Shown here one piece after another: positions 1 to 27,428 of a stretch of DNA of 27,985 bases. The notes under the pieces were generated by a model. That model did no database searches, had not been told where the DNA came from, and saw nothing but the letters and a program-made list of their open reading frames with translations. Origin of the DNA: a virus. Every line of letters begins with the position of its first letter. Position 1 is the first letter of the stretch. Both the position numbers and the translations under genes were made by a program. The DNA lies in IMG/VR virus record IMGVR_UViG_3300042311_001225, positions 1 through 27,985 of that record. One strand, 5' to 3'.

Positions 1-932
1 AGAAATTCTTCTGAAGGGAAAGTTGTGTACATTCTTGTGTAAGGAGACTTGGTATAGACATTTTGAATTAATTCAAAATCAATATTATAATAAACCGAAT
101 TATTGTTTACTTCTGTAAAAATATTTTGTGACTGTGTACCAACATCAATTGATTTTTGATACATTCCGTTTGTATAAGCAGAACTAATGAAAAAAGTATA
201 CCAAGCAGACCCACTGATTGTGGAAGCAGATATTCGACGGGTTAAAAAATTGTATGATGTCATTTGATTCCCGTAAGTATCATTTCCAGTTGGGTAGGGT
301 ACCGTTGGGTAGTTTAAAATTTGCACGGCGGGTAATTCGCCGCTAGTCCATCCAGAATAACTTAAATACGTATTCATTTCGTTTTCAAAATCAACTTGAT
401 TTGTTGATGGAGCAACTCCATTACTAAATCCAAAAAAATTGACCCCCTGACTTTGCATATAATTTCCTATAATTGTTGAAGCGGTCAAAGGTTCAATTAC
501 CAATAAAGCCGTAATTGAATTATTGTAAAATATAGGAGTAGGGTTTGGAGTAGGCGTTGGAGTTGGTGAAGTAGTAAAACTAGGTGTAACAGTATTGGTA
601 GGTGTTGGAGTTGGTGAATATGACGTTTGAGTAACCGATGGTGTAACAAAAGGTGTAGCAGTATTGGATGGAGTATATGATGGTGTAACAGTAACCGATG
701 GTGTTGGGGTTAATGTGATACAATTGTAGACTTGTGTAAACTCGCAGTTTTGTGAGTCAATTATTTTTACTAAAACGGAAGGACTATTAGTATAGGCTGA
801 CGGACTTTCAAAAGAAAATGGTAATGTCGTAACCCCTGAGGAAACTAAATTACAATTTAATAAAAATGGTGTACAAACATATATTGAATATGGCGGTATA
901 CCATTTATTGTATTTATAGTTATTTGACTCAT
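1..932 (-). CDS. Putative tail fibre/adhesin protein, partial (3' end outside window)
   Basis: The reading frame opens with ATG at 932 and stays open to the left edge (310 codons), so the C-terminus is missing. Residues about 11-72 look like one SprB-type unit: a GIPPYS segment, a Cys, and a closing IIDSQNC, matching the repeat ends of the upstream 727-residue protein. Residues about 74-133 are a Thr/Pro/Ser-rich linker (TPTP, TPSVT and SPTPTPT blocks). After it comes a different, Asn/Tyr/Ser-rich domain containing a MQSQGVNFFGFSNG segment, which I do not recognise. The stop of the upstream gene is 2 bases before this ATG, so the two are surely co-transcribed. A flexible linker joining two globular parts suits an extended surface or fibre protein. 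The receptor-binding role is inference from position and architecture. No signal peptide is visible. Confidence 0.75.
   Translation of the reverse strand, partial: MSQITINTINGIPPYSIYVCTPFLLNCNLVSSGVTTLPFSFESPSAYTNSPSVLVKIIDSQNCEFTQVYNCITLTPTPSVTVTPSYTPSNTATPFVTPSVTQTSYSPTPTPTNTVTPSFTTSPTPTPTPNPTPIFYNNSITALLVIEPLTASTIIGNYMQSQGVNFFGFSNGVAPSTNQVDFENEMNTYLSYSGWTSGELPAVQILNYPTVPYPTGNDTYGNQMTSYNFLTRRISASTISGSAWYTFFISSAYTNGMYQKSIDVGTQSQNIFTEVNNNSVYYNIDFELIQNVYTKSPYTRMYTTFPSEEF
540..715 (-). repeat. Imperfect short direct repeats coding a Thr/Pro linker
   Basis: On the plus strand the 15-mer GTTGGAGTTGGTGAA occurs at 556-570 and again at 604-618. GTAACCGATGGTGT occurs at 631-644 and 691-704. Variants of GGTGTAACAGTATTGG occur near 583 and 652. 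They encode the Thr/Pro/Ser-rich linker of the partial protein. The repeats are degenerate and share no single period, so this is a low-complexity coding repeat rather than a clean tandem array. Such DNA can change length by slippage or recombination. Confidence 0.7.
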
Positions 933-934
933 TT

Positions 935-3118
935 TTACGCACAAATAATATTATTTACTGAGATACATTTAATAACATAGTAAATTCTTATTGTAAATGT
1001 AATGGTTTCCCCTTTATAATACTCACCTGTTTGGTCAGCCTTTGCAAGAATATTAATACTATTCTTTTCAGCATCTACAGTACAACTTTGGATGTTTGGA
1101 ATGGTAAGAATTGATGATTGTATAATTGGTGCAAAATAACTTAAATCAGGAATATTATCAAAACTCTCGGTATAATAAAAAGGAAACTCGTAATCAATTC
1201 CCCCAATATTTACTTTAAAATTAAATGTTGCACTACTTAAAGTACAATTTGTTGAATTTTCAACTAATGACGTATATCCTGAATACATCATATTTTTTAA
1301 AGTTAATTTAGTTGTTGGAATAGTTTCTTTTACTCCCTTACTATATTTGAAACTATAACTAGTAATTTGTTTTGGGTCACAAGTCACATCAATACTTCTT
1401 GATGTTATACAGTTATTTTCACCACTTACTGTTAAAGTATAGGTACCTGCCGTTAATCCAGTTATAAAAATTCCAGTTTGCCCGTTCACATTTTCACTCC
1501 AAAATAAACTATATGGTCCGTCAGTTTCTTGAATCAAAGCGGTGACGGTTCCCTCATTTCCATTTTGACAGCTTGTTGAATATAGAAATAATTGGTATGG
1601 TTCAGTTTTAGGAATAAAGGTAATCCCAGTAATTGTACATGCAGTATCATCAATAACTGTAACAGTATAGAACGCTGAGGGTAGTCCAGTAAAAGTATAT
1701 GTTGTTGCAGTTGTGGGAGATGAGTGTTGTCCGCTAGATAAATAATACGTATAAGTAAGTCCAGTTTGGTAAACTTGATTAATACCAACATTTATGGAAC
1801 CACTAAAACTTGCACAATTATCAGTATTTGCGGTTAACGAAATAGAAAAGTTTGTAAAATTTTCAATTGTAATTATCTCATTATAAGTACAAGCACTGTT
1901 TATGTCTCTAACCGTTAAAAGATAATTTCCATAATTTAAGTTTGAAAATGTATTGGTCGCTAAAGAAGTTGTTCTTTTAGTTACTGAACCACTACTGGCA
2001 GATAGAGTAAATAAAAACGGTGGTGTACCATCCTGTAATTGTGTTGTAATACTTCCCCTTTTATCACAGTAAGAATCTTCTTTTGTTGAGGAAATAATTG
2101 AAAACGAATTTGGTGCAAAAAGTTGAGCCTCGTAATTAGTTTGACATAAACCAGCATCAGTTATGGTTAAATCATAAATACCTGATGATAGTCCTGTAAA
2201 TGTAACTTCGTTGGAAATTAAAGTTTGTGACACCCCATTACTTAAAGAGTAATTAAAGGGTGCTGAACCGCCTGAAGTGTAAAAAGTTATCTGTCCGTTA
2301 TTACTATAACAATCGGGTAATACCGTTGTATACGCAAGAACAGATAAGGAACTTGAAGCACTTACAGTGGTACTCTTGAAACTTGAGCATCCCAATGAAT
2401 CGGTCACCGTAACCCCATAATTTCCAATTGATAGACCTGTTACAGATGTTCCCGTCACTGTTGGTGATATAGAGTTGTCCCAAACATATGTAAATGGAGC
2501 GGCTCCAGAAACACTTGTAATATAAATCTGTCCATTCTGTATAACACAAGCAGGATTATTTACTGTATATAAATTAAAGTCTAATGGCGTGGAAGTCTTA
2601 ACAATCACAGAGTTACTAATACCTTCACATCCACCTAAATCTTGTACTACCGCATAATAAACATCGGGAGCCAACCCTTGGAAATACACATAATTAGAAT
2701 TAGTCGACGCGCTCGTATAAAAACCTCCGCTCGAATATAGTGAAACGGTATTTAATCCATAATTTATTGGCATGTAAGCATATACTGTTCCATTATTATC
2801 ACCACACGTTGTATTCACTGAGGTGGTTAATGTAATTGTAATAGAAGAGGTTATTACAAAAGAAATTGGCACTTGATACACCGTCTCCCCCAAATAAGGC
2901 GTGTCATAAATTTGTAATGAGTAATATCCCGCACTTAGCCCTGTAACAACATATGGATTTGTTGTAATTGTTCCAGATGAAAATGAAATTCCTGAAACAG
3001 GATTTATCCATGTAACACTAACAGGAGGTGAAGATGCGGTATATGAGAGTGAAAATGTGCCAGCAGACGTGTTTCCACAATCTCCAACTATACTATATGA
3101 GGTACCTAATATTGACAT
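935..3118 (-). CDS. SprB-like repeat protein, probable tail adhesin
   Basis: A 727-residue protein built of about seven degenerate units of roughly 75-85 residues (approximately 6-90, 96-175, 181-255, 258-335, 338-415, 423-500, 508-580), then a different C-terminal domain (585-727). A typical unit opens with an early Cys and N-G (PACVIQNGQI, LPDCYSNNGQI), has a GGSAPF or GAAPFTY turn, then TGLS.G.Y..T.TD, and often closes in GC. The third unit is the clearest (VTGLSIGNYGVTVTDSLGC). This is the consensus of SprB repeats, known from the gliding adhesin SprB of Flavobacterium and other large Bacteroidota surface proteins. There is no signal peptide or type IX sorting domain, so a virion part is more likely than a secreted protein. 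It starts 3 bases after the stop of the gpI-like gene and ends 2 bases before the next start. Family assignment is fairly secure; the adhesin role is inferred. Confidence 0.75.
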   Translation of the reverse strand: MSILGTSYSIVGDCGNTSAGTFSLSYTASSPPVSVTWINPVSGISFSSGTITTNPYVVTGLSAGYYSLQIYDTPYLGETVYQVPISFVITSSITITLTTSVNTTCGDNNGTVYAYMPINYGLNTVSLYSSGGFYTSASTNSNYVYFQGLAPDVYYAVVQDLGGCEGISNSVIVKTSTPLDFNLYTVNNPACVIQNGQIYITSVSGAAPFTYVWDNSISPTVTGTSVTGLSIGNYGVTVTDSLGCSSFKSTTVSASSSLSVLAYTTVLPDCYSNNGQITFYTSGGSAPFNYSLSNGVSQTLISNEVTFTGLSSGIYDLTITDAGLCQTNYEAQLFAPNSFSIISSTKEDSYCDKRGSITTQLQDGTPPFLFTLSASSGSVTKRTTSLATNTFSNLNYGNYLLTVRDINSACTYNEIITIENFTNFSISLTANTDNCASFSGSINVGINQVYQTGLTYTYYLSSGQHSSPTTATTYTFTGLPSAFYTVTVIDDTACTITGITFIPKTEPYQLFLYSTSCQNGNEGTVTALIQETDGPYSLFWSENVNGQTGIFITGLTAGTYTLTVSGENNCITSRSIDVTCDPKQITSYSFKYSKGVKETIPTTKLTLKNMMYSGYTSLVENSTNCTLSSATFNFKVNIGGIDYEFPFYYTESFDNIPDLSYFAPIIQSSILTIPNIQSCTVDAEKNSINILAKADQTGEYYKGETITFTIRIYYVIKCISVNNIICA

Positions 3119-3121
3119 TTA

Positions 3122-6058
3122 TTAACAACCAAATTCAACGTTTATAAATTCTAAATCAAAATCAGCAAGAGTAATCTCTTCACAGTCCTCTGATTGTAAT
3201 GTTATTGTATTATTGGCGTAAGTTGCCGAAACACCTATTGCCGTTAAATCTCCAAGTATACTTCCAAGTCCTTGGTTTATAAATATAATCCATTGCACTT
3301 CACTCATAACTAAATTTGGTGAGTTAAACACCTCAGGGTTATCAAAACTAAAAGTCTCATTCACACCATTTTTGGTTAATGTGAGGATAAATCTATATTG
3401 TAATGATGATATAGACGCAGTACCAACCGCACAGACTATTTCTAATGGGATTGAATTTATTGCTTGTTGTAGAATATTAGAATTATATAATATACTCAAA
3501 AAGAAATCGACTGTATTACAATTATTAGGTTGTACTCCACCACCAGCTTGTCCACCTGCAAGTTCTAAATTTTCTAAAATACATCCTCGTTGTGGCCTGT
3601 AAATAAATTTCTGTCTATGGAAAATAGAATTTTCGAACCTTGTTCCTGTATTCCAAAGAGTGGTAGCAGGTATAAATTGTTCAACCAACCTTACCCAAAA
3701 ATCTCCAATTCCATTAATATAACTTAACATATTAATGTAGTTAAAATTATTTGTTTCGATTCCTACGTCTTGTAGTGATGTTAGATATCTCCAAAAAATA
3801 GATTGTAGTGTTGGGTATCCCGATGTTTTACCGTCTGTCGCAACTTGTCTGTTTCTAACATTTATTAAATTTGTCCAAAAAGTTTGAGCGAATTCAAAAA
3901 AGTCTTTTAGTTGTGGTTTTGGGTCAATTACGGTCCAGTCGGTATCACCTGTTGTTGGGTACGGATTAGCAAGTCCTGAAAAAGGTATCGGATAATTTTC
4001 TTGGTTTGAAAGAGCCCATACATCGTATGCAAGTGCTTGTCCTGGATTTAAAAACAAGTCAACGTTTTTAACATTCATTACAAGTCTATCATCACTTACT
4101 TCATAATAAGCATCAAAATTACCATCAGCATTTTTTCTTAAATCAGATGTGTTTTGGGTCCAAGATTTTTTGTTATCAATTGTTTTTTCAAGTTCAAAAC
4201 CAATTCCCAAATAAGGAAAGTTTCTAAACCTCTCCAAGTATTTTTCACCATATGTAAATGGTTCAAGTTGGGTTTGAATATTAACTGAGTCACCAGTAAA
4301 TGTACTTAACTCTTCGTTTATTTCTTCAGGACTTCTATGTTGTGGTGTAGATTCGAACCATCCCGCACCTTTTTGAAAATAAAGGGAATCGTTATCGGCT
4401 GGTGCCTTAGGGTAACCATCCTTATCTATTGGATAATCATCCCTTAATAAATCAACTTCAACCACTTCGTTTGACGGGGTATAAGCCGTATAAGGAGCAC
4501 CAAAAAATCTATAAATGTTGTTTGGGTCGTATACAGGAACTAATGGTGTATAAGTACCTCCTGTTACAGTAAAATATAACTCCTCAAATCTATCTGGTCT
4601 TATTCTATCATCTGCAAGGTATATGTGTTCGTTAAATTCCAAAAGAGCCTCGGGAGCTCCGATAAAATTCATTAAAAATTCTATTGCCCTTCTGGTACCT
4701 TTTGATTTAAACAGATATGCCGAATTAAGAATCAAGTTTCTAAAATACTGATACTCTAACTCATCAAGTGATGGTGAGTTCGACATGCCAGGAAAATTAC
4801 TCGATACTTGCCCATAAAGTGTACTCAAAAAAGAATCACTTTGAATTGGTGATATGTTTGTTTGCCATCCGAGTGTTTGTGCAAAATTTGTAAGTAATTT
4901 AGACGGAACATCATCTCCCACATTATAATTTACCGAAACCATATGTGAAATGGAGTCGATGTACTTTTTGGATTCGTCAAAACTCCTACCATAAATTTTT
5001 AGAGTTTTAGCCACCTTCATATCGTCGGTATCAAATTCTTTAAAAGAATCTGTAGTATAAAATCTAGTTAAAAGGTCCGTTTGATTTTCGTCAAAGGATT
5101 CGGAAATTTTACTGAGTTTTGTTACGTATGATGTAAATGATGGGGTAGAAATATCTATGTTCCACTGACCGTTTAGTGGCCATGTTGCGGTTTGTGTAGT
5201 GTAAAATATATTCCCATCGTCGCCGTCAGTTAAGACCCTAAACTGTGAGGTATAGAGAGGCATCGAATATCTATTCAATAAAAACTCATCCACCTCATCA
5301 AGTTCCAAATTAAAAATTTCACTTACCGTAATATCATCGGGTCTTATAATATAATCCGTAATCATTGGTACGGTTGTAGGGAATGGTTCTCCGTCTACTG
5401 CAATATATAAAGTTCCTGCCGATGTGGTGGTGGTTGCGGTAACATCAATAATATTATATGTCCCACCTGTTATTTCTAAAACATAATTTCTGAAATATGT
5501 TGTAAAATCACGGTATTTAGAAACCTCATATGGTAAATTTTTAATATTGATAAATGCCGATGTTGTGAAATCAATACCTAAAGGGTTAGAAATAATACTA
5601 GCGTCTATTCCAAAATAGGTAATATTTTCAACCGAATCATATGTTAAAAAATTAATTGTTGCACCCGTTGTATAATTTGGTCTGAAAAATGAAACTTCTA
5701 AAGCGGCTGGAAAGTAATTTATACTATTTGTAATTGATGCAAGAAGTCTCTTACCCATTGGACCATAAGCAACATAGTTAGTCACTTTTGAAGGGTCAAA
5801 GTTTGGATATACTCTAAAATTTACATCATTAATCTGTTGAGCCTTAACAGTTGTTGATATGTTAAGATTACTTAAATTTAAAGGTCCCGAGTATTTTCCA
5901 GTATCAAAATTTCTATCAACTTTTTCATTAACAGAAGTTCTAAATTCAAAATTTCCAAGCGTAAGTCCTCCCCCTCGGGTAAGTTGTAACCCAACCAAAT
6001 TATCCGAAAAAGTACCTTGACCACTTCCGGTTTGTGGAGGATACGTAAACTTACTCAT
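3122..6058 (-). CDS. Probable baseplate wedge protein (gpI/gp7-like)
   Basis: A 978-residue protein. Residues about 430-482 contain ILNSAYLFKSKGTRRAIEF followed by LMNFIGAPEALLEFNE. This resembles the core of the phage P2 gpI tail family, in which a KGT..A...L...G motif precedes an acidic or aromatic segment. In contractile tails gpI-type proteins take the place of T4 gp7, which bundles with a gp6 dimer in the wedge. T4 gp7 is 1032 residues, close to this length, and a gp6-like gene lies upstream in the same operon. The rest is beta-rich and Tyr/Asn/Thr-rich without recognised motifs; a segment near 880 is Gly-rich (GGQAGGGVQ). The ATG overlaps the preceding stop in an ATGA junction at 6055-6058, suggesting translational coupling. 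The gp7 equivalence is an inference from one motif, size and context. Confidence 0.55.
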   Translation of the reverse strand: MSKFTYPPQTGSGQGTFSDNLVGLQLTRGGGLTLGNFEFRTSVNEKVDRNFDTGKYSGPLNLSNLNISTTVKAQQINDVNFRVYPNFDPSKVTNYVAYGPMGKRLLASITNSINYFPAALEVSFFRPNYTTGATINFLTYDSVENITYFGIDASIISNPLGIDFTTSAFINIKNLPYEVSKYRDFTTYFRNYVLEITGGTYNIIDVTATTTTSAGTLYIAVDGEPFPTTVPMITDYIIRPDDITVSEIFNLELDEVDEFLLNRYSMPLYTSQFRVLTDGDDGNIFYTTQTATWPLNGQWNIDISTPSFTSYVTKLSKISESFDENQTDLLTRFYTTDSFKEFDTDDMKVAKTLKIYGRSFDESKKYIDSISHMVSVNYNVGDDVPSKLLTNFAQTLGWQTNISPIQSDSFLSTLYGQVSSNFPGMSNSPSLDELEYQYFRNLILNSAYLFKSKGTRRAIEFLMNFIGAPEALLEFNEHIYLADDRIRPDRFEELYFTVTGGTYTPLVPVYDPNNIYRFFGAPYTAYTPSNEVVEVDLLRDDYPIDKDGYPKAPADNDSLYFQKGAGWFESTPQHRSPEEINEELSTFTGDSVNIQTQLEPFTYGEKYLERFRNFPYLGIGFELEKTIDNKKSWTQNTSDLRKNADGNFDAYYEVSDDRLVMNVKNVDLFLNPGQALAYDVWALSNQENYPIPFSGLANPYPTTGDTDWTVIDPKPQLKDFFEFAQTFWTNLINVRNRQVATDGKTSGYPTLQSIFWRYLTSLQDVGIETNNFNYINMLSYINGIGDFWVRLVEQFIPATTLWNTGTRFENSIFHRQKFIYRPQRGCILENLELAGGQAGGGVQPNNCNTVDFFLSILYNSNILQQAINSIPLEIVCAVGTASISSLQYRFILTLTKNGVNETFSFDNPEVFNSPNLVMSEVQWIIFINQGLGSILGDLTAIGVSATYANNTITLQSEDCEEITLADFDLEFINVEFGC

Positions 6059-9142: not shown

Positions 9143-10928
9143 CTATCGTAGGTATTGGGATTACACGTGCAAAGTTTGTATTAGACCCTTCGGGTATTAT
9201 TCTAAAGAAAAAATTGTCATACGGGTAGTGTCGGTTATTAAAGAACGGATAATCCACTCCATTTCCATCTGAGTCAACAAATCCGTAAGGATACAAATCT
9301 CTCCAAAAAAAAGTTTTATTTTTTTCTGAGTAAAAAGCATAATCAGGTATACCAACCGTAACATCACTATTTCCTTGTTCTATGTAGTCAGAGTATTCTC
9401 TAATTTTCAATTTATAATGTGGTATATAATAATAACCACTTGGGTTATCTAGACTTGTATTTATATCAAAAACTTGTGGATTAAATACGAATTTATGGTA
9501 GTACTCAGAAAGAACTGTTTCTTTTAATTCCATATTATTCCACTCACAGACATCACCATATATTTGTTCTCCCTGATTATAATAATCATTATAATAAAAA
9601 GTCTGAGGTACACCTCCTGAATTATATAAATAACTACTAGTTGATAAATTTAAATCCGAATTTGGATTGTTTCTTTCCCACCATGCTGTGGGGACACTCC
9701 TAATGTTAAATTTCCATCCTTCTTTTAATCCATTTCCTTGGGGTGTAGGGGGAGTAAACCACCCGAAATAACCTCTATGTACAACCGTAAAGAATATCTC
9801 GCTTACAGGTCTATTATGATTATCTAAAAAACCAGTTATGTTTACAGACCTATTAAAAGATAAATTATAAGATTGTGAATCTTCTAATACTGATATCCTT
9901 GATAAATTGTTTGGTGTTAGGGCAGCAGTCTCAAACTTTTTTTTTGTTCTAAAAGCATTCTGTTCGAATCCTGTAAAAGTCGTGACTGCGTCAAATTGAT
10001 TTGTAAGAATAGTATGAAGTCTAACGTAGTAATTAGATTTTGATTCTATCGGGTTGTCACTATCAATAACTCTTCTTAAAGTACCTACTTTATCTTGTTC
10101 AAATGTATTGGGTCCTGTATTATACCCAACATCTAAAATATTAAAAATTGTAGATTCGGAACCATATGTACCATCACCTAAACTAAAAATTTCGAACAAA
10201 TTCCTATCAGGAATTACTACACCTAATGAATTTGTAATTTCAATATTTGAAAACTCAACATATTCTCCCGCTATTAAATTATGTTTAAATGCGGTTCTAC
10301 ATTGCCAAAAAGCCTTACCATCTGAAGACACTCTTGACATTCTATATGGTATTCCATCAGATATAACCCAATCATCTGAGCTATTAGGTAATCCATCCCC
10401 AAAATCGTATGATAATGTTTTTTGACTATCCATACCTGAAACATAACTCAAATAAAAAGACCAATTATACTTATTAGCTTGTAATGGCATTGCGTCTACT
10501 TGTGCGTTTGGGCCAGAAGTATACCCATTTATTCCAAAATCTGTCCTTATAAAAGAAAATTCATTATATTGTGGAATACCAGGCCATGGTAATGTTATAG
10601 GAGTTAAAACTTGTTGAGCCTTTGTTTCCTCAGCGTTTACATAATAAAGATTATTATTATAAGGTCTATGCGGCTCCGAAACGGGTTGAGTAATACCTGA
10701 GTAAGTATTAGAAAAAAGTAGTTGGAATTTACAACTTGGAAAAAAATTAAACGAATTTTGTCTCTCATTGTCATAGACTTCAGTTAGATTAACGCTGGCC
10801 TGTCTAACATTTTCATCTAACTCTTTAATTTTCCCACTAAGGGGTAAAGTCATCTGAATACTGACATCGGATGCCTGCTTATATCTAAGACTACCTTTTA
10901 AGAATTCTATTTTATTATTATCGCTCAT
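9129..10928 (-). CDS. Unknown phage structural protein (599 residues)
   Basis: I chose the ATG at 10928; the frame also offers a TTG one codon earlier at 10931, but the ATG is the simpler start. It lies 11 bases inside the end of the giant gene. The N-terminus (MSDNNKIEFLKGSLRYKQAS) leads into a Lys/Glu-rich segment with VRQASVNLTEVYDNERQ, perhaps helical. The remainder is rich in Tyr, Phe, Asn and Pro, as in tail-spike or baseplate proteins. A DFGDG stretch near residue 180 resembles the PKD turn, but the partnering H.Y..GTY part is not clear, so I do not call the domain. No enzyme motif was found. It probably belongs to the virion baseplate, by co-location. Confidence 0.6.
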   Translation of the reverse strand: MSDNNKIEFLKGSLRYKQASDVSIQMTLPLSGKIKELDENVRQASVNLTEVYDNERQNSFNFFPSCKFQLLFSNTYSGITQPVSEPHRPYNNNLYYVNAEETKAQQVLTPITLPWPGIPQYNEFSFIRTDFGINGYTSGPNAQVDAMPLQANKYNWSFYLSYVSGMDSQKTLSYDFGDGLPNSSDDWVISDGIPYRMSRVSSDGKAFWQCRTAFKHNLIAGEYVEFSNIEITNSLGVVIPDRNLFEIFSLGDGTYGSESTIFNILDVGYNTGPNTFEQDKVGTLRRVIDSDNPIESKSNYYVRLHTILTNQFDAVTTFTGFEQNAFRTKKKFETAALTPNNLSRISVLEDSQSYNLSFNRSVNITGFLDNHNRPVSEIFFTVVHRGYFGWFTPPTPQGNGLKEGWKFNIRSVPTAWWERNNPNSDLNLSTSSYLYNSGGVPQTFYYNDYYNQGEQIYGDVCEWNNMELKETVLSEYYHKFVFNPQVFDINTSLDNPSGYYYIPHYKLKIREYSDYIEQGNSDVTVGIPDYAFYSEKNKTFFWRDLYPYGFVDSDGNGVDYPFFNNRHYPYDNFFFRIIPEGSNTNFARVIPIPTIDGCE

Positions 10929-13900
10929 CAATCAAAGTTGTATCAACATACTTGTTAATAAATACATCCATTGCCGTTGCGCCAGGAATTAATCCAAAAT
11001 AAAAATGTTGCGGAGCACCAAATGTGAAAGTTCTATTTAAATATCCTGTTGGTGTTGTTGAAACTAAAGCTCCAGTTAAATCATTATTTGAAATGAATGC
11101 ATTGTAATATTGAGAAATATTATTACTTGTACTTGGTCTAAAATATTCTGATGAATTATCCAATCTATCTAAATCTTGATACCCAACTCTAAAGAAAGTA
11201 AATCCAGGATTTGTATCAAAATCATTTGACTGTTGACCAAATATTGTTCTAGATAAAGCTAAACCACTACCTATAGGTACCGGACTATTCGTCATATTAA
11301 TTCTCCACTGATAAAATGGTACTTCTTGTGTAAAAGTAGGAATTATAGTTTCTTCATCAGGAGTTATAGGTAGAACTGTCGCTGGATTATATAATGTTCT
11401 TCTTGGTGTTATATAATCTCTATCCACAGAATTACCACTAAAAAATAATCCATAAAATGGAATTCCAGTACCGTCAGTCCCAAAATAAATTGTGTTATTA
11501 CCATAAGTTTCAGGTCCGTATTCATAAACTCCAAATTCTGAACTTATAGATATCATTTGTGAAAAATCAGCGTCAACAAGACTAGGTAGTAATCCTCCAA
11601 AAAATAACTGTCCATTTGCCCATCTTGAATTTGTAAAGACAGCTCTAATTGATGGGTCGTCACTTCCCTGATTTGCATCATCATCTTCTGAATTACCAAC
11701 AGGTATAAGAAGTTGCCAGAATTTAACATTAACAAACCTACTTAAAACAAAAAGATTTAATACTTTTGAATTATCTTTATAAGAGGTACTTGGAACTTTA
11801 TTTACAATATATCCATCATATTCGTCTGAAAAAACTATTTCCTGTATAAATTGATTTTTTGGGCCCAATTCCATTATGGTTGTCGGAAACAAAAGGTTTT
11901 TCAAATTTCCATACTTATTTACATTAACATCAGTTAAATTGTATTTTAACTTACCGATAAAATTATTTGCGTTATATGGGGAACTTCTATAAAAAAAGTT
12001 TTTTATTTGTCTATTGAAAAATATAGTGTCTCTACAATAGCTCTTAACTGGTTGATTTTCGTCATCGAAGAATGTTGCCATTTGAAATGAAAATGCATAT
12101 AGGGTTCCATTTATCCAATTGTTAGAAAAAGTTTGTGAGAATATATCAAAACACATTGCAAAAGTTAATTTTAACCTCTGTACCCACTCTACCACCGACC
12201 TTATATCAGAATAATATTTAACAGTTATTTGTCCACTAGTTGCATTTGTTTCGTCTATTCTAAATCTAAATAAAGAAATAAAAACTTTAGAGACTAAAAC
12301 ATAACACCCTCTTCCTCTCTCAAACCACACATAATCACTTGCCGCCGCTGGTTGAGTACTATATGGTACAGGGTCAGCAATTCCTGGTGTGCCATCTGTA
12401 TTAATATAATAACTATTAAGGTCTACCGCAGATTCACATTGTGATATTGAATTTAATACTGAAGAGTATTCTCCGGTTTCTCCTCCAGGTATAAAATCAA
12501 CATCAACTTCTGTTACAATAGGATTTAAATTTACATCTCCACCTCCTACTTGTTCTATAGTACAATTAGTAAGTTTAAATATTGCAAATCCAGCATTTTG
12601 ATGGAGTAACATTGTATTACCAAATCCATTTTTTGTAATCTGTGTAGAAGATGGTAATCTATCAGTTCTGAAAACAGAAACTAAAGGATTTCTAACTAAC
12701 AATGTATTATTAGGGTTAATGTGCCATGTATCAGGTGAGTATCCAGGAGCAACGGGAACATTTTCCTCAAAACCAGCATATACAGGTGAGAAATATATGG
12801 CGTTAGTATTTTCAAAAAAAGTATCTCTATCTCTCAAATATACATTAGTGTAGCTATTTCCATCCGGGTCAGGCAAAGCTACGTTAGTTTGTACATAAGA
12901 TAGTGCGTGAGCATATCCAGCACCCTGTGTTATATATAAACTATAACTACTATTAAAAGCATCTGTCCAAAAATCATTACCTATAGTCCCACCAAAAATA
13001 CCTATTGGACATCCAAAAAATACTGAGGATGAATAATCCAAATATGTAGTTAGTCTTCCAACATAAATAGAACTTCCCTCTACGTATTCTCTACCATAAT
13101 AACCTGATACTTCATTATCTTCAGTATTCCTTCTTACTGAATGATAATATTGATTATTACCAGGATAGTTTCCAAACTTAGTACAGAATCTACCAGTTCC
13201 CGCCCCGCCAAACATGTCAAAATCATCTCCAACATAAACGCTATTACTACCATCATAACAATTACTGAGCCTTGAGTAAGCTCCGTCGTTTGGTCCAACA
13301 TCGTCACAAATAACACCGGGATTAATACCATTATTATATCCTACATCAAAATTATAGTAAGGATGTACAGTATAAATGCTAGGTATAGCAAAAGGGAATT
13401 GTTGTCTTCTTAGAGCTTGGTAAGTATCCGAAACTGTATTTAAATAACATGGATAATCAGTTTCGTATCTAATTTCTCTTACCAAATTTTTAGTAAATGC
13501 GTTGTTACTGGGATTTACACACAAAATTCCATCATATGTTGAGCCAGGTGCGAATACTTCGGTTGTACTATCAACTATTCCTTGGTTAACCGTGTTTCCT
13601 GAATTCCAAATACCGTGTAAAAACCTTGAGTACTTACTCAAAGCAGAGTAATACATGTGCATTTTAGTTTCAAACTGAAAAAAGGGATTTTCATCTGTAT
13701 TGAGATATACAAAATTATAAGAAGTATGAAATAGTGGTAAATAATTAAGAACTGGAAAAGGACCAGGACCGGGTATAACATCATTAAATTTATTAAATTC
13801 ATGATATGGTAATATTAATCCCTTTGGATTTACTAATGAGTCCGTGGGAGCCGCCTGTATGGGAATATTCATTTTCATCCCAGGTACAGTAATAATGATT

Positions 13901-16900
13901 CTTTGGTTTACAAACGAATCACTAAAAACTTGTCCTGGCCCTCCACCACCTCTTCTAATATTATTATCTGAGTTAAAATCCCAATTTGAACCATACAACC
14001 TTCTTAAATCATATCTAATAGGTATGGTTTGTGAATTTGGGTCGACTCCCCTTTGTAAAAAAACAATTGTTAATCCAGTTGTACTTTGTAAAGAACCCCA
14101 ATCATCTAAATGAACATGTGTCCAAGTCATAGAATCAAAACAAAGACCAATTCCTGCGGTACCACAACTAAACCCAAAGTCATCACCAACTGAGTTTATT
14201 CTTTGTCTGGTATAGGTCCTATTAGCATTTGACATACCTGGACTTGAGAACAAATTTGATATCGGGTAACCTGCCGGTACGTTTGCCGGTGTCCCGTTGC
14301 ATCCATTACAATGTCCAAAATATCTATATTGACCAACATTACTTCTTAAAAATCTATAAGGTAGTGAAAATTTAGCGTCTCCACTATTATTTGTATTAGA
14401 TAAACCTATAGCATAAGCAGTATCGGTAGGTGTGTTGTTAGGACCAATATGGTTAGTTTCTAAAATATATTCATCATAAGGTATAGAATCTATTACTTGA
14501 AAATATTCAATATCCATTGGATAACAAGTTGTCCCAGTGATTGATTGTGGTCCAGTTAATGGCATGGTATAAACTGTTGATAATGTATTTGGAGCCCCTT
14601 GGAAATTAGGATTAGCATAAAAAGCAGTCCTTGTTAGATGTCTTGTAAATACTCCTAGAGAGTCATCCACATTTGGGTCTTGTGATTCACTAGGGTCTTG
14701 GAATGTTAATAGGTCTCCTCTATTAAAAGTTCCATTATCAACAACAAGTACCATAACATTGTCAAAATGGAATTTTGTTGTAGGATTATTATTTGCGGGA
14801 TTCCATGTAACCTTTATTTGATTCCATCCTGTATTTCCGGGACTTATAGATGCTCCCTTATCTCCGTCCCAAAAAGCTGTGACATTATCAAAATACTTAG
14901 CCTTTGTGTTAAATAAATTTAGTCTTTCGGCAAGTGTTAAACTGAGAGAAAATCTTTGTATGTTTCTACTACCATCATTACCTTCAAAAATTGGTATTCT
15001 TACCCAATTTGGGTTTTCATCTGAATTCCACCCCGCTTGTATAGTCGAATTAATTAATTTTAATTGATTACTACTATTAGGGGTTGCCTGATTTTCACTA
15101 CCTGTAGCATCACTGTGAGTGCCGTAGTTCATTGCACTACAAGTATTACCAAGTTTATAGTTTGCAAAACTAGCATCATTTAATTGGTATAAAACGGCAG
15201 TCTGAGTTGCACTAAAGGTACTTAGGGAAGTTAAATTTGCCAAATTTGATACATTTACCTCATCAAATTGTGAGGCATTTTCATCAAGTGCAACTGCAAG
15301 TGGAATAGTTTCAGGGTCAAGTTGTACAGGGTCTATGTTACATCTACATCTAGTACATCCATCGTCGGTATATAGAAACAACGGTAGTTTAATATTTTTA
15401 AATGGATTATTTAATATTGTATCAAATGGTATAAAGTCAGGACATTCTACAGGTTCAGGAACATTAATTAAATCAGCAATCCCATTAATTAAAAATCCAA
15501 CCGCCTCACAAATAGCAACTACTATATTTATGAGACCAAGAATAATAACTAAAACTGGAGTTAATATTATCCAAAGAAAACCAAGTACGTGAGATATTAC
15601 TGTAAGGGGTATAAGAATGAATTTAAACATTTCCAATATGAAACTGAAAAAGATAAATAAAATATTATATCTGTAATAAGCATCATTTACTGGAAATGGA
15701 TTTTTTGTATCTTCACAAGCCTCGTCATTTACATATTTGATTTGTATTGATTTCTGAGGTAAAAAAGAACTCGAAAATCTATCAATCAATTGAGAAACAG
15801 TGTAAACTTTATTATAGGTAAACTCAAAGAATCTATCCTCACAATCGACCGCCTCTTGTATCATATCAGAAGTGCCATAATCAACCCAACTTAAACTATA
15901 CGCATATGAACCTTGTACTTGGAATTGTTGTCTATTGTAGACATCAACAAATAATCCACCTCCTGTATTAGAGTCAATTAAAGTGTAGTTTATTACAACT
16001 GTATTACCAACAAGTTCCGGTAAAGGTATTGTATCATGTAAATCAGGTCTTTCTATTCCATTAACAAGTATTGTCCATTCTGAAATGTTATCAGTACCTG
16101 TAACAATATAATATTGTTCTGGTGGTACCGCACCAGGAAAAAGAAGTGTTGCAGAGTTTTCATTATCAGGTACATTTAACTGTGACGGACTTGGATTTGT
16201 TTTTGCAGGGTCATCATTAGGGTTAGTTGAATTAGGAACATCGCTCCATCCCCATTCTTTTACGTTTGGTACCAAAAAATACCCTCTTCTATCTTCCTCT
16301 CTTAAAGATGTTGATTGTTGCCATTTAATTTTAAATCTATATCTTGCTCTTGTGGGTACACCAGCACTACCATCAGGAGAAATTCTTCTAATACCATTTT
16401 CATCAGTATATTCATAATCCAAATTCATCGGGACATCTACAACCCACGCCCCATTTGCATCAATTAATTTACCCTCATTTTCCAAACGAAATTCTTCTAA
16501 GATAGGTCTACCATCATCGTCTGTAAAAATAGTTTGTCTAATACAATCGATTTGACCTGGACCTGATATTAAATCACATAACCAACCTTGCTTAGCAGGA
16601 ACTTTACAATTTCTTTTAAGTTTTTTCTTATTGGTAGTTGAGATAAGTGAACCCATAAAAATAGCAACTGGTTTGAGTTCTATAGAAGCCTCAGTAGTTA
16701 AGTCAAAATCCGCTCTTACAATATAGTGTTGACAAATCCCTTCTTCCCCGTAAAAGGGAGCAACTTGGATTGTTTTTGTAAGAGTTACAATTTGAGGTAA
16801 TTCGCTATAATTTTCTGAAAATTTAAATTTGGTTCCATTTACCTGACTCTCAACTGCTCTACCCATCCTTATTAAATCTTGTGGGGATAGAGAAAACTCA

Positions 16901-17424
16901 CCAATATCAGATAAGTCAACTTGCATGAATAACTCATATTGTCCGACTGGAACACCAAAAATCATAAAGTCCCCCGAATCATTAGTTTTTGCCGTGAACT
17001 TATAATACTTATCATATACCTCAACAACTGTTGGATTTGTAAGTGCATCAATTCTGTCAGGAAAAGTTCCAACGGGAACGTGTCCTGAATAAGATTGTGA
17101 ATATGGTAATAAGTTATACTTGTATCCGTCTTCGTTGAAGTCTTCAAAACTTCTATATGGGTATAATGTTGAAATTATAGGGTTAGACTGGTCCTCTTCT
17201 GAGATTGGGATAAAAATCGAAACTCTTGCATTTACAAGTCCTAACCCTTTATTAGCAAAAACTCTTCCGCACACAACACCAAAATCAGCACAACTTCTTG
17301 TGTAAACCTCGTTTGGGAAAATTGACAGTGATAAAATTTCTAACTTGTCATAATCTTGGTCTAAATTAACTTGTAATACTTTGTTTGTACCAACTTCGGT
17401 TCTAATTCTATAAGAATTGGGCAT
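10918..17424 (-). CDS. Giant structural protein with carboxypeptidase-regulatory-like domain and hydrophobic block
   Basis: A 2168-residue protein, by far the largest here. Residues about 48-180 resemble a carboxypeptidase-regulatory-like beta-sandwich: VCGRVFANKGLGLVNARVSI, then KFTAKTNDSGDFMIFGVPVG and QYELFMQVD, which fit the usual G.V....G.PL..A.V.I / T..DG.F....G.Y.L pattern. Residues about 586-655 form an extremely hydrophobic stretch (FIFFSFILEMF, LGFLWIILTPVLVIILGL, FLINGIADLI), enough for two or three membrane-spanning helices. A Cys group follows at C661, C690, C693 and C695 (DDGCTRCRC). The remaining ~1450 residues are Asn/Tyr/Gly/Ser-rich and beta-like, without family signature. 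It begins 50 bases after the gp6-like stop. It could be a baseplate hub, tail-tip or membrane-interacting ejection protein. A tape measure is less likely because the long helical pattern is missing. Function unknown. Confidence 0.75.
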   Translation of the reverse strand: MPNSYRIRTEVGTNKVLQVNLDQDYDKLEILSLSIFPNEVYTRSCADFGVVCGRVFANKGLGLVNARVSIFIPISEEDQSNPIISTLYPYRSFEDFNEDGYKYNLLPYSQSYSGHVPVGTFPDRIDALTNPTVVEVYDKYYKFTAKTNDSGDFMIFGVPVGQYELFMQVDLSDIGEFSLSPQDLIRMGRAVESQVNGTKFKFSENYSELPQIVTLTKTIQVAPFYGEEGICQHYIVRADFDLTTEASIELKPVAIFMGSLISTTNKKKLKRNCKVPAKQGWLCDLISGPGQIDCIRQTIFTDDDGRPILEEFRLENEGKLIDANGAWVVDVPMNLDYEYTDENGIRRISPDGSAGVPTRARYRFKIKWQQSTSLREEDRRGYFLVPNVKEWGWSDVPNSTNPNDDPAKTNPSPSQLNVPDNENSATLLFPGAVPPEQYYIVTGTDNISEWTILVNGIERPDLHDTIPLPELVGNTVVINYTLIDSNTGGGLFVDVYNRQQFQVQGSYAYSLSWVDYGTSDMIQEAVDCEDRFFEFTYNKVYTVSQLIDRFSSSFLPQKSIQIKYVNDEACEDTKNPFPVNDAYYRYNILFIFFSFILEMFKFILIPLTVISHVLGFLWIILTPVLVIILGLINIVVAICEAVGFLINGIADLINVPEPVECPDFIPFDTILNNPFKNIKLPLFLYTDDGCTRCRCNIDPVQLDPETIPLAVALDENASQFDEVNVSNLANLTSLSTFSATQTAVLYQLNDASFANYKLGNTCSAMNYGTHSDATGSENQATPNSSNQLKLINSTIQAGWNSDENPNWVRIPIFEGNDGSRNIQRFSLSLTLAERLNLFNTKAKYFDNVTAFWDGDKGASISPGNTGWNQIKVTWNPANNNPTTKFHFDNVMVLVVDNGTFNRGDLLTFQDPSESQDPNVDDSLGVFTRHLTRTAFYANPNFQGAPNTLSTVYTMPLTGPQSITGTTCYPMDIEYFQVIDSIPYDEYILETNHIGPNNTPTDTAYAIGLSNTNNSGDAKFSLPYRFLRSNVGQYRYFGHCNGCNGTPANVPAGYPISNLFSSPGMSNANRTYTRQRINSVGDDFGFSCGTAGIGLCFDSMTWTHVHLDDWGSLQSTTGLTIVFLQRGVDPNSQTIPIRYDLRRLYGSNWDFNSDNNIRRGGGGPGQVFSDSFVNQRIIITVPGMKMNIPIQAAPTDSLVNPKGLILPYHEFNKFNDVIPGPGPFPVLNYLPLFHTSYNFVYLNTDENPFFQFETKMHMYYSALSKYSRFLHGIWNSGNTVNQGIVDSTTEVFAPGSTYDGILCVNPSNNAFTKNLVREIRYETDYPCYLNTVSDTYQALRRQQFPFAIPSIYTVHPYYNFDVGYNNGINPGVICDDVGPNDGAYSRLSNCYDGSNSVYVGDDFDMFGGAGTGRFCTKFGNYPGNNQYYHSVRRNTEDNEVSGYYGREYVEGSSIYVGRLTTYLDYSSSVFFGCPIGIFGGTIGNDFWTDAFNSSYSLYITQGAGYAHALSYVQTNVALPDPDGNSYTNVYLRDRDTFFENTNAIYFSPVYAGFEENVPVAPGYSPDTWHINPNNTLLVRNPLVSVFRTDRLPSSTQITKNGFGNTMLLHQNAGFAIFKLTNCTIEQVGGGDVNLNPIVTEVDVDFIPGGETGEYSSVLNSISQCESAVDLNSYYINTDGTPGIADPVPYSTQPAAASDYVWFERGRGCYVLVSKVFISLFRFRIDETNATSGQITVKYYSDIRSVVEWVQRLKLTFAMCFDIFSQTFSNNWINGTLYAFSFQMATFFDDENQPVKSYCRDTIFFNRQIKNFFYRSSPYNANNFIGKLKYNLTDVNVNKYGNLKNLLFPTTIMELGPKNQFIQEIVFSDEYDGYIVNKVPSTSYKDNSKVLNLFVLSRFVNVKFWQLLIPVGNSEDDDANQGSDDPSIRAVFTNSRWANGQLFFGGLLPSLVDADFSQMISISSEFGVYEYGPETYGNNTIYFGTDGTGIPFYGLFFSGNSVDRDYITPRRTLYNPATVLPITPDEETIIPTFTQEVPFYQWRINMTNSPVPIGSGLALSRTIFGQQSNDFDTNPGFTFFRVGYQDLDRLDNSSEYFRPSTSNNISQYYNAFISNNDLTGALVSTTPTGYLNRTFTFGAPQHFYFGLIPGATAMDVFINKYVDTTLIDER

Positions 17425-17474: not shown

Positions 17475-19313
17475 TTAGGAGAAATTGACCGTACTTAAAT
17501 TTTTAACCCTAACCTGTATATCTTGGTTATCGTACCTTACTTGATATATCTGCCTTGGCTCGGCAAAAATTGTTTCGTCAATAATTTCAATTTGTCTTGT
17601 CGCCGAGTCCAAATATCTCTGTGAAGTTTCGGCAGATGAGTAGATTCCTCCCACCTTGTTAAACACCATTATATCCGTAACACTGATAACTCCATCCTCC
17701 TCTTGCATGATTCTTCTTATTTCAGAAATATTAACATTTTGACCCATTTGTCTATTAATTGGGTTCATGTAATCCGCAATTTTTAATATAAGGTTTGAAA
17801 CAACAATTCCTTGGTTTTGTGAAGCGTCTAATACAACTGATATATCAAAAGATAGGTCTATTACATTTGCAGGATAAACATAGATATAATCATTAATCAT
17901 TCTATAGTTTGACAAATAATTTGCAATGTTTGTCATCAGCGTATTTGATACAGACGAGGTGAGCTTTCCTGTTTGGTCATAAGAAAGAACATTAATTTTA
18001 ATCTTATTATCCTCCTCAGTTATTGCCACTTTTGCTGGAGCTCCAAACTGAGATGGCATCTTTCTGAGTAACGCTTCGTAGTCATTAATAGTAACCGCTC
18101 TGTTTTGTGCCGCAAAATTAAATGCAACAAAATTTCTTACTTCTTCTGTTGTTGGGAAGTTCGCCCCTCCGATTGCGGCTGTTGTATTATTACAAGACAG
18201 TGATTGTATAACACTACTGTTTATAATCTGTGAGGGTCCGTTAACTGCAAAATTTACTGTTGCAATTCCGTTAATAATATTAACACCAATATTTGATGAG
18301 AGTCCTCCACCTATTCTATACTGAATAAAAAGTGTTGTATTTGGTTTTAATACTGAACCTAATGAAAAGTTGTTTTGGTATTTGGATAAATCAAGTGGTT
18401 GTCCGTTTCTAGCAAATTCTCTAAGTAATTCGTCAGTAGAAGTATTACCTCCACCAAATGTTAATTTCATATAACCCTCAGGAGTATATTCTGTAATAAA
18501 TCTGCTTGTAGTTTGTAAATATCTACCCACTTTAACACCAGGGGTATCAGAAGTTTTTGTCGGGTCTTCGATAAACACTCTGTCTTCGGCAAGAGCCTGA
18601 ACTTCATACCATCTATTATTTGCACCCAAAAATTCTTGAGCTGAGGGTATGTTTGTATAGTTTGTTCCGTCTTTCAATAATACACTTGTAACACCAAGTA
18701 CATTTCTTTCAGGTAAAAATATCTCATAAAATGGTCTTGATTCTATATCTGTAATAGTTTTTTTAAACACTTTTGTAACACCATTCACTACCGCCTCTCT
18801 TTTAACAATTGTATAATTTACAATAATATTATTTGAGTCATAGTTTGGAATAACAAGTCTGTTAACAAAACCATTAGAGTCAAAATCAGATGAGAAATTA
18901 CAATCGTTGGGTAATTCGAATATCTGTCCTGCACCTTGTACCTGACTTCCTCTTCTTAAAATTCCACAATATCTTAAATCCTCTTTATCACCAAAAGCTG
19001 GTACAACAATAGAGAACTCAACAAGAGCAACAGAAGGTCTTAGTCCAGGTATTTTTAAACCATAAGTTCTTGCTATGTTAAATACAGACGACCTTTCTTG
19101 GGCATATTGTAAAACAGTTTCTTGTAAACTTCTGTCAATGTGGTAGTGAAGGTTATCAGTAACGGCAGCATTCAAATCCATAAAGACGCTAAAAATCGCA
19201 GCATCATTAAAATTTTGGACTAAATCAGGATAATATAATTTTGTAAAATTAATTAATTCATTCCTGATATTTTGGAAATCCCTTACAGTATACGATATTT
19301 GTTTGTTAGCCAT
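17475..19313 (-). CDS. Baseplate wedge protein, gp6/baseplate J family
   Basis: A 612-residue protein of the gp6/P2 gpJ baseplate family; T4 gp6 (660 residues) forms the inner ring of the wedge as a dimer. The clearest signature is at residues 382-424: GGANFPTTEEVRNFVAFNFA, then AQNRAVTINDYEALLRKMPS and QFG, the family's hallmark segment with QNRAVT and DYE. The N-terminal part (DFQNIRNELINFTKLYYPD, DLNAAVTDNLHYHIDRS) matches the helical start typical of wedge proteins of T4-like phages. The C-terminal section ends in beta-rich segments (IVVSNLILKIADYMNPINRQ, EDGVISVTDIMVF) also typical of gpJ-like proteins. It lies 5 bases after the gp25-like gene, the order expected for contractile tails. 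ATG at 19313 with no Shine-Dalgarno motif. Confidence 0.9.
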   Translation of the reverse strand: MANKQISYTVRDFQNIRNELINFTKLYYPDLVQNFNDAAIFSVFMDLNAAVTDNLHYHIDRSLQETVLQYAQERSSVFNIARTYGLKIPGLRPSVALVEFSIVVPAFGDKEDLRYCGILRRGSQVQGAGQIFELPNDCNFSSDFDSNGFVNRLVIPNYDSNNIIVNYTIVKREAVVNGVTKVFKKTITDIESRPFYEIFLPERNVLGVTSVLLKDGTNYTNIPSAQEFLGANNRWYEVQALAEDRVFIEDPTKTSDTPGVKVGRYLQTTSRFITEYTPEGYMKLTFGGGNTSTDELLREFARNGQPLDLSKYQNNFSLGSVLKPNTTLFIQYRIGGGLSSNIGVNIINGIATVNFAVNGPSQIINSSVIQSLSCNNTTAAIGGANFPTTEEVRNFVAFNFAAQNRAVTINDYEALLRKMPSQFGAPAKVAITEEDNKIKINVLSYDQTGKLTSSVSNTLMTNIANYLSNYRMINDYIYVYPANVIDLSFDISVVLDASQNQGIVVSNLILKIADYMNPINRQMGQNVNISEIRRIMQEEDGVISVTDIMVFNKVGGIYSSAETSQRYLDSATRQIEIIDETIFAEPRQIYQVRYDNQDIQVRVKNLSTVNFS

Positions 19314-19318
19314 TACTT

Positions 19319-19780
19319 TTATATATTAATAATTATAAAATCACTCTGATTAAATACATTATTTGTGATTGTATAATCAATTCTTACTTTTGCAGTATAT
19401 TCTAATCCCGCTCTACCGGGTAAGGCAATTGTATTATTAGTCATTCCATCTTGAGTAGTTGTTGGATTTGTTCCTTCTTCCGTACTTGCATCAGTAATAG
19501 AAATAGTATTTATTTGAAGGTTTGGTATATATTTTCCAACCGAATCTCTTATCTCTGATTCTATTTGATTAAAGGTTGGTCCATCCAACGGTTCGAAAAT
19601 ATATTCATACAGTCTTGTACCAAAATCAGGTAAAAAATATCTCGCGCCTTTTCTTGTTAAAAGTAAGTGAATTAAACTACTTCTAACTTCTTGGTCTTCA
19701 AAATCTGTAAGGTCTAAATACTTTCCATCAAATGAATCCCTAAATGGGAAAGTAATACCATATGTTACACCATTTGCCAT
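19319..19780 (-). CDS. Baseplate wedge protein, gp25/GPW family
   Basis: A 153-residue protein of the gp25/TssE family, which sits at the base of the sheath and helps nucleate its polymerisation. Residues 31-64 carry the family core: EVRSSLIHLLLTRKGARYFL followed by PDFGTRLYEYIFEP. The usual EPR motif near the end of the following helix appears here as I85-P86-N87 (GKYIPNLQI), so Glu and Arg are both replaced. Residues about 97-120 are a Thr/Gly/Asn-rich insertion (DASTEEGTNPTTTQDG) before the last strands. It precedes the gp6-like gene by 5 bases, as partners in the wedge. T4 gp25 is 132 residues, so this one is slightly longer. Start at ATG 19780 without Shine-Dalgarno sequence. Confidence 0.9.
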   Translation of the reverse strand: MANGVTYGITFPFRDSFDGKYLDLTDFEDQEVRSSLIHLLLTRKGARYFLPDFGTRLYEYIFEPLDGPTFNQIESEIRDSVGKYIPNLQINTISITDASTEEGTNPTTTQDGMTNNTIALPGRAGLEYTAKVRIDYTITNNVFNQSDFIIINI

Positions 19781-26834: not shown

Positions 26835-27428
26835 ATGAAACATAATCCATATAAAATTGTAAAAATGTTCGAAGAAGAAATTGCCGAATACACAGGAGCT
26901 CCTTACGCAATTGCTTTAGATAATTGTACTGATGCGTTATTTTTATGTTGTACTTTTTTAAAAGTAGAGGATGTTACAATTCCAAAAAAAACATACCTAT
27001 CGGTACCTCAAGCAATAATGGCAGCAGGCGGTAAATTTATATTTGATGATATAGATTGGAAAGGTATATATCAGTTGTATCCATATCCGATATATGACTC
27101 AGCAAGAAGATTTACTAGTAACATGTATATAAATGGTAGTTTTATGTGTCTATCATTTCACCCAAAAAAAATACTAAAAATGAGAAAAGGGGGAGTAATA
27201 TTAACCGATAACCAAGAAGCATATGAGTGGTTTAAAAAAGCTAGACATGAAGGAAGAGACGAAATACCTTACATTGAGGATAACATCAAGTTTATGGGTT
27301 GGAACATGTATATGACCCCTCCTGACGCCGCGGAGGGATTGTGGTTAATGTCTTCTATGCCAAAACATAATGAAGACACTCATGAAGACTATCCTGATTT
27401 AACTAATCATGATTTGTACAAATCATGA
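26835..27428 (+). CDS. Half-length DegT/ArnB-type PLP protein
   Basis: A 197-residue protein matching only the PLP-binding large domain of DegT/DnrJ/EryC1/StrS sugar aminotransferases, which are normally about 370 residues. Expected elements: NCTDAL at 30-35 in place of the phosphate-binding SGTAAL loop; FDDIDWKG at 70-77; D88 in YDSARR, the residue that pairs with the pyridine nitrogen; LSFHPKKIL at 106-114, where K112 aligns with the Schiff-base lysine of the SFHA.KN motif; and KGGVILTDN at 118-126. A WNMYMTP..AA segment follows, after which the protein stops. The C-terminal small domain, which completes the active site across the dimer, is missing. The sequence around it gives no room for a lost remainder in another frame. 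It is the only plus-strand gene and ends inside a palindrome. It may act with a host partner, form a compact variant, or have lost catalysis. Confidence 0.8.
   Translation: MKHNPYKIVKMFEEEIAEYTGAPYAIALDNCTDALFLCCTFLKVEDVTIPKKTYLSVPQAIMAAGGKFIFDDIDWKGIYQLYPYPIYDSARRFTSNMYINGSFMCLSFHPKKILKMRKGGVILTDNQEAYEWFKKARHEGRDEIPYIEDNIKFMGWNMYMTPPDAAEGLWLMSSMPKHNEDTHEDYPDLTNHDLYKS

Follow-up and report, generated by a model that had tools for sequence, protein, structure and literature searches.

Genomic Context of the Seven-Unit Gene

The window, i.e., the whole stretch of DNA analyzed, is a 27,985-base IMG/VR virus record encoding an RNR, a replicative helicase, an exonuclease, and a minus-strand tail/baseplate cluster. 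The genes of this cluster that are considered here are as follows.

3–944, minus strand: next gene after the seven-unit gene, cut by the contig end, encoding a Pro/Thr-rich stalk protein (phrog_15511, E = 1.7e-7), with a homolog at the same place in relatives
935–3118, minus strand: gene for the seven-unit SprB-like protein (ATG start, 727 aa)
3122–6058, minus strand: 978-aa tail/baseplate-operon protein, the invariant upstream neighbor of the seven-unit gene
17475–19313, minus strand: gp6/Baseplate_J-like baseplate wedge protein (profile matches)
19319–19780, minus strand: gp25-like baseplate wedge protein (profile match)

The gp25-like and gp6/Baseplate_J-like genes lie upstream of the seven-unit gene on the same strand, in agreement with the baseplate-operon setting described in the initial annotation of the window. 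The seven-unit gene follows a homolog of the 978-aa gene, at a spacing of -11 to +5 nt, in 70 of the 70 distinct loci with readable downstream sequence; this number is that after duplicate removal, and in four further loci the contig ends at or inside the seven-unit gene. In one relative (L013), tail-fiber and tail-spike-like genes are located downstream. The 978-aa protein matched no Pfam or PHROG family and is weakly similar to a large structural protein that Flavobacterium phage immuto and phage Mel-JY01 encode in the same cluster. Its description as P2 gpI-like, which came from a motif, found no Pfam support, and the name was dropped. The RNR of the window has its closest counterparts (~41%) in Tenacibaculum and Cellulophaga phages, and the nearest relatives of its gp6-like protein include that of Flavobacterium phage immuto. 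The host of the virus is therefore likely a member of the Bacteroidota.

Several other genes were noted in these regions. The baseplate cluster of the window contains a 2168-aa ORF (10918–17424) with no convincing family match in Pfam or PHROG. On the plus strand, a 197-aa ORF (26835–27428) matches only parts of the 360-position DegT/DnrJ aminotransferase profile and looks truncated. The tail gene region of a 140-kb relative carries an IS605 OrfB (TnpB-like) transposase gene (L012:15363-16574). Other proteins of 432–820 aa with one or two SprB units are encoded in the tail-gene regions of relatives (L013:19544-22006; L046, L106, L108, L113, L130, L132, L135, L138, and L140).

Domain Organization and Predicted Fold

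The 727-aa ORF is kept at full length in relatives with 47–49% identity. It consists of exactly seven SprB-type Ig-like units (residues 2–583), of about 75–90 aa each, and a separate C-terminal domain (residues 584–727); the initial annotation had proposed about seven SprB-like repeats. All parts are encoded on the minus strand.

2840–3115, minus strand: unit U1, residues 2–93; AB-loop C14, FG-loop Cys absent; presumed baseplate-proximal end
2585–2839, minus strand: unit U2, residues 94–178; AB C105, FG C164
2348–2584, minus strand: unit U3, residues 179–257; AB C191, FG C244; SprB match
2102–2347, minus strand: unit U4, residues 258–339; AB C270, FG C325; best SprB match
1850–2101, minus strand: unit U5, residues 340–423; AB C351, FG C410
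1604–1849, minus strand: unit U6, residues 424–505; AB C435, FG C494
1370–1603, minus strand: unit U7, residues 506–583; AB C517, FG C570, closing C580 after strand G
938–1369, minus strand: C-terminal domain, residues 584–727; conserved, α/β, distinct from the SprB units; C625 and C718 almost invariant

Structure prediction, one of the checks proposed for the repeats, was carried out with AlphaFold2 on the whole protein, and the mean pLDDT rose from 69 with 6 sequences to 84 with 55 sequences. The latter model contains an Ig-like sandwich with β strands in each of the seven units, as expected, followed by a poorly predicted linker (residues 582–603) and an α/β C-terminal domain. The pTM of 0.41 leaves the relative arrangement of the domains unsure. 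Among solved structures, the model is best matched by fragments of the Aureispira GhpA filament, and in this whole-protein search the C-terminal domain is covered by none of the solved structures among the matches listed. A homology of this domain to the C-terminus of the 978-aa neighbor, suggested by eye, was not significant in a profile comparison.

Relationship to Cellular SprB Repeats

A Pfam search, named beforehand as a check in the initial annotation, matched the window protein to SprB (PF13573) with an E-value of 1.5e-6 and 28.1 bits, which against a cut-off of 28 is borderline when taken alone. The match is considerably stronger in relatives: SprB was matched by five of five members of the first alignment (best 2.3e-11) and by all 55 diverse members of the broad family (best 7.6e-28). 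A unit model built from 200 cellular SprB units gave the window protein 161 bits over seven consecutive domains. The boundaries of these training units had initially been set by means of the phage model, which makes for a mild circularity, but their loci were retrieved from bacterial genomes using a T9SS query protein. The cellular-unit model gave at most 8.5 bits for 1000 shuffles and -19.4 for the reversed window protein. Conversely, a model trained on phage units only found at least 13 units (E = 1.4e-104) in a bona fide T9SS SprB protein of 1670 aa (L007), which also carries SprB (6e-95) and CHU_C sorting-domain (5e-14) matches. As judged from these sequence comparisons, the phage units are genuinely related to the units of T9SS-secreted Bacteroidota proteins. 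The protein itself was described initially as lacking a signal peptide and a sorting domain, and this description holds: its N-terminus (MSILGTSYSIVGDCGNT), read by eye, has no basic-plus-hydrophobic leader, and no T9SS sorting domain (CHU_C or Por_Secre_tail) is found at its C-terminus, the sole Por_Secre_tail trace (E = 0.6) falling inside unit 7.

A Fixed Core and a Variable C-Terminal End

Direct scans yielded 45 loci with the seven-unit protein; its upstream neighbor was recovered in 80 of 366 loci. The 59 representatives at 90% identity show a median pairwise identity of 37% and seven units across the set. Apart from two members that are broken or misaligned, every complete member has a core of 702–735 aa. 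In a few relatives, belonging to two groups, 6 or 8 units were counted, which is probably an effect of the detection threshold because the core lengths are unchanged. With position-specific models, 203 of 203 held-out units matched their own position best; thus, seven position-specific units were fixed before the divergence of phages that are now ~27–50% identical. The units within one phage protein share only ~31% identity, versus ~53% within cellular arrays. Given the constant core length, the position specificity, and this difference in identity, the seven-unit array is, on sequence grounds, an old and fixed component of the phage lineage, and neither a variable adhesin array nor a recent duplication.

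Within the family, variation is greatest in the C-terminal extension rather than in the SprB units. Total length ranges from 705 to 1283 aa in complete, unbroken members, and the surplus is formed by this extension, which is mostly made up of stretches rich in Pro and Thr and of small domains containing cysteines. Between relatives whose cores are ~90% identical, the difference can be the presence or absence of an extension of 274–375 aa; for L001 and L002, for instance, the extension of 274 aa is present in one and absent in the other. The window protein lacks an extension, and a Pro/Thr-rich protein, conserved in relatives, is encoded by the next gene. In one relative (L045:8977-10794), the seven-unit ORF stops at 606 aa while similarity runs on, reflecting a frameshift or a sequencing error.

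None of 50,697 phage records represents a cultured relative carrying the seven-unit gene. The nearest cultured phages, immuto and Mel-JY01, were considered as possible carriers of an orthologue; they have tail-fiber or LamG proteins at this place, with no SprB units. A search for a cellular relative of the whole protein found none.

Predicted Cysteine Pairing

The initial annotation had pointed to conserved cysteines in the units, and nearly all unit cysteines are indeed invariant in the 59 non-redundant representatives: Cys14, 105, 191, 244, 270, 325, and 351 without exception, and Cys164, 410, 494, 435, and 570 nearly so. DSSP assignment on the AlphaFold2 model places Cys14, 105, 191, 270, 351, 435, and 517 in AB loops and Cys164, 244, 325, 410, 494, and 570 in FG loops, with Cys580 after strand G of U7. 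When Ig domains are strung in tandem, strand A of a domain starts out from its N-terminal pole and strand G finishes at its C-terminal pole; the AB loop is consequently found at the C-terminal pole, and the FG loop at the N-terminal one. Intra-unit AB–FG pairs would therefore sit at opposite ends of the domain. They would also leave Cys14 and Cys580 without partners, and no covariation of such pairs was observed in phages or cells; intra-unit disulfides were therefore rejected. In contrast, a scheme that links the AB loop of unit k to the FG loop of unit k+1, together with a 517–580 pair, accounts for all fourteen unit cysteines.

Covariation agrees with this scheme. Among the phages, co-change was found in few events, four in number: 517/580 twice, on supported branches, 435/570 once, and ~2/~74 once, these pairs showing no discordant case; the intra-unit alternatives never co-change. 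In a group of 27 members, U1 has an FG-loop Cys near residue 74 exactly when an N-terminal Cys is present near residue 2, and this perfect correlation is what the scheme requires for the first unit. One phage (L057) runs against the pairing, as C164 is lost and C14 is retained.

The AB/FG cysteine pattern is also present in 97% of cellular SprB units. Among 1,841 adjacent unit pairs, drawn from L007 and from 77 genome loci, almost all of which carry a Bacteroidota label, the AB(k) and FG(k+1) cysteines were both lost ten times, compared with none for intra-unit pairs and none for reversed neighbors (Fisher p = 2e-17); the ten co-losses lie in six ORFs, three on one contig, and amount to about four independent cases, and 17 pairs are discordant. 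Moreover, the FG Cys is absent in 12 of 89 array-first units but in only 17 of 1735 middle units of cellular arrays (p = 2e-9).

Taken together, inter-domain AB(k)–FG(k+1) disulfides are predicted for the phage protein. The initial proposal of conserved disulfides or paired folds thus stands as to the conserved cysteines and is refined to inter-domain pairing. By inference, the cellular co-losses support disulfides of this type in SprB repeats at large. Because the cytoplasm in which phage proteins fold is reducing, the bonds could form only after lysis.

Proposed Role and Alternative Explanations

The favored explanation, which we consider fairly probable, is that the seven-unit protein serves a contractile-tail Bacteroidota phage as a structural rod of fixed length, docked on the baseplate, stapled by disulfides, and offering its C-terminal end for host contact. 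The unit count, the family membership, the invariant neighborhood, the predicted fold, and the positions and co-loss of the cysteines are its observed basis; the virion location, polarity, disulfides, stiffness, and function in host contact would follow from it. The N-terminal end would attach to the ~980-aa protein of the baseplate operon whose gene lies immediately upstream, and the seven Ig-like SprB units would form the shaft. At each joint, a disulfide would link the AB-loop cysteine of a unit to the FG-loop cysteine of the unit that follows, and C580 would close off the last unit. These bonds would arise once the virion has left the reducing cytoplasm, giving a stiff shaft of set length, about 25–28 nm as estimated from 35–40 Å per Ig domain. 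The C-terminal domain and, in many relatives, the Pro/Thr-rich extension with its small domains would point outward as an exchangeable host contact.

Adsorption of Flavobacterium and Cellulophaga phages has been tied to the gliding machinery (PMC7345892, PMC13288928). Together with the membership of the units in the same domain family as T9SS-secreted surface proteins, this link speaks for a captured host adhesin, in which the SprB units themselves would bind host surface glycans or gliding/T9SS surface parts during adsorption. Yet each unit is tied to its position, and the units evolve as a structural core would; since the C-terminal extension, and not the SprB units, varies most, host contact is better placed there. 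A recent transfer is also not indicated, as the whole protein has no cellular relative that could be found and its units have diverged from one another much further than cellular units have. Capture for binding is thus unlikely. Of the captured host surface module suggested initially, the shared domain family stands, while recent capture does not, given the fixed units, their lower mutual identity, and the missing cellular relative.

Alternatively, SprB might be merely the nearest model for ordinary phage Ig-like accessory domains, such as those of Hoc, T5 pb10, and neck whiskers, which would sit on the head, neck, or tail and stick weakly to cells. Indeed, the unit profile matches the decoration protein 5lxk (E = 3e-7), the neck whisker gp24 9occ (5e-7), and Hoc 3shs (0.0068), and 16 of 55 members match a Hoc-like PHROG through single Ig-like parts, although the window protein does not. 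SprB, however, is matched by every member and more strongly, the AB/FG cysteines follow the pattern of cellular SprB units, and the gene lies in the tail cluster at all loci read, which makes this explanation rather improbable. A non-virion protein, intracellular or secreted and placed in the operon by chance, is conceivable insofar as the placement in the virion comes from gene context. The tight coupling to the 978-aa gene (70/70 loci) and the surface-type, Pro/Thr-rich character of the extensions argue against it, and we regard it as very improbable.

Beyond the structural rod favored for this phage protein, a broader view is advanced with slightly less assurance: SprB repeats in general may be stiff, force-bearing rods stapled AB(k)–FG(k+1), and a widespread Bacteroidota phage lineage may have fixed this design as a seven-unit ruler reaching from the baseplate to the receptor-binding tip.

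Novelty and Comparison with Known Systems

To date, no paper describing SprB repeats in phage tails was found in the open-access literature. SprB repeats, Ig-like domains on phages, and one viral homolog named 'SprB repeat' are already known; the fixed seven-unit architecture, the one-to-one association with a gene of the baseplate operon, and the ladder of cysteines common to cellular SprB arrays are new. The named homolog, UniProt A0A6J5LD72 from an uncultured Caudovirales phage (714 aa), matches over its full length with 39% identity and is very probably a member of the seven-unit family; the SprB label on a phage protein is therefore not new. For this entry, a database name was found and no description of unit number, gene neighborhood, or cysteine pairing.

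The work defines a widespread phage protein family, for which PHROGs holds no family, coupled one-to-one to a baseplate-operon gene, and provides a concrete proposal for tail-arm construction in these Bacteroidota phages. The cysteine rule extends equally to bacterial gliding adhesins. The family also presents a bacterial surface-adhesin domain as serving long-term as a viral structural part.

SprB repeat arrays, which are T9SS-secreted as in the gliding adhesin SprB, resemble the phage protein in having a unit of ~75–85 aa, the motifs C..NG, GG..PY.Y.W, and GL..G.Y.VTVTD..GC, and the same AB/FG cysteine positions and co-loss rule. Unlike SprB adhesins, the phage protein lies in a phage gene cluster, carries no signal peptide or T9SS sorting domain, and has exactly seven highly diverged, position-fixed units, whereas cellular arrays are long and more uniform. 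T5 pb10-type decoration proteins, Hoc, neck whiskers, and the Ig-like domains of lambda gpJ share the Ig-like fold on virions and a detectable sequence similarity, but they occupy other places in the virion or genome and have fewer domains. In the portions of 5lxk and 9occ that could be aligned, which take in the FG loop but not the AB loop, there is no FG-loop cysteine. Grappling hook protein A (GhpA) of Aureispira sp. CCB-QB1 (PDB 9flp, 9flv, 9fly, and others) forms a long filament of tandem Ig-like domains, as in the phage model; however, it is a bacterial protein of 5,898 aa, and its sequence match is weak (14.9 bits).

The 1670-aa SprB protein used above is itself encoded in a 642-kb uncultured phage record (LR756502.1; L007:13141-18153). 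It has a leader-like N-terminus, ~13 SprB repeats, a PKD domain, and CHU_C, so that, with the assembly and binning of the record taken as given, a huge-phage record contains a T9SS cargo protein.
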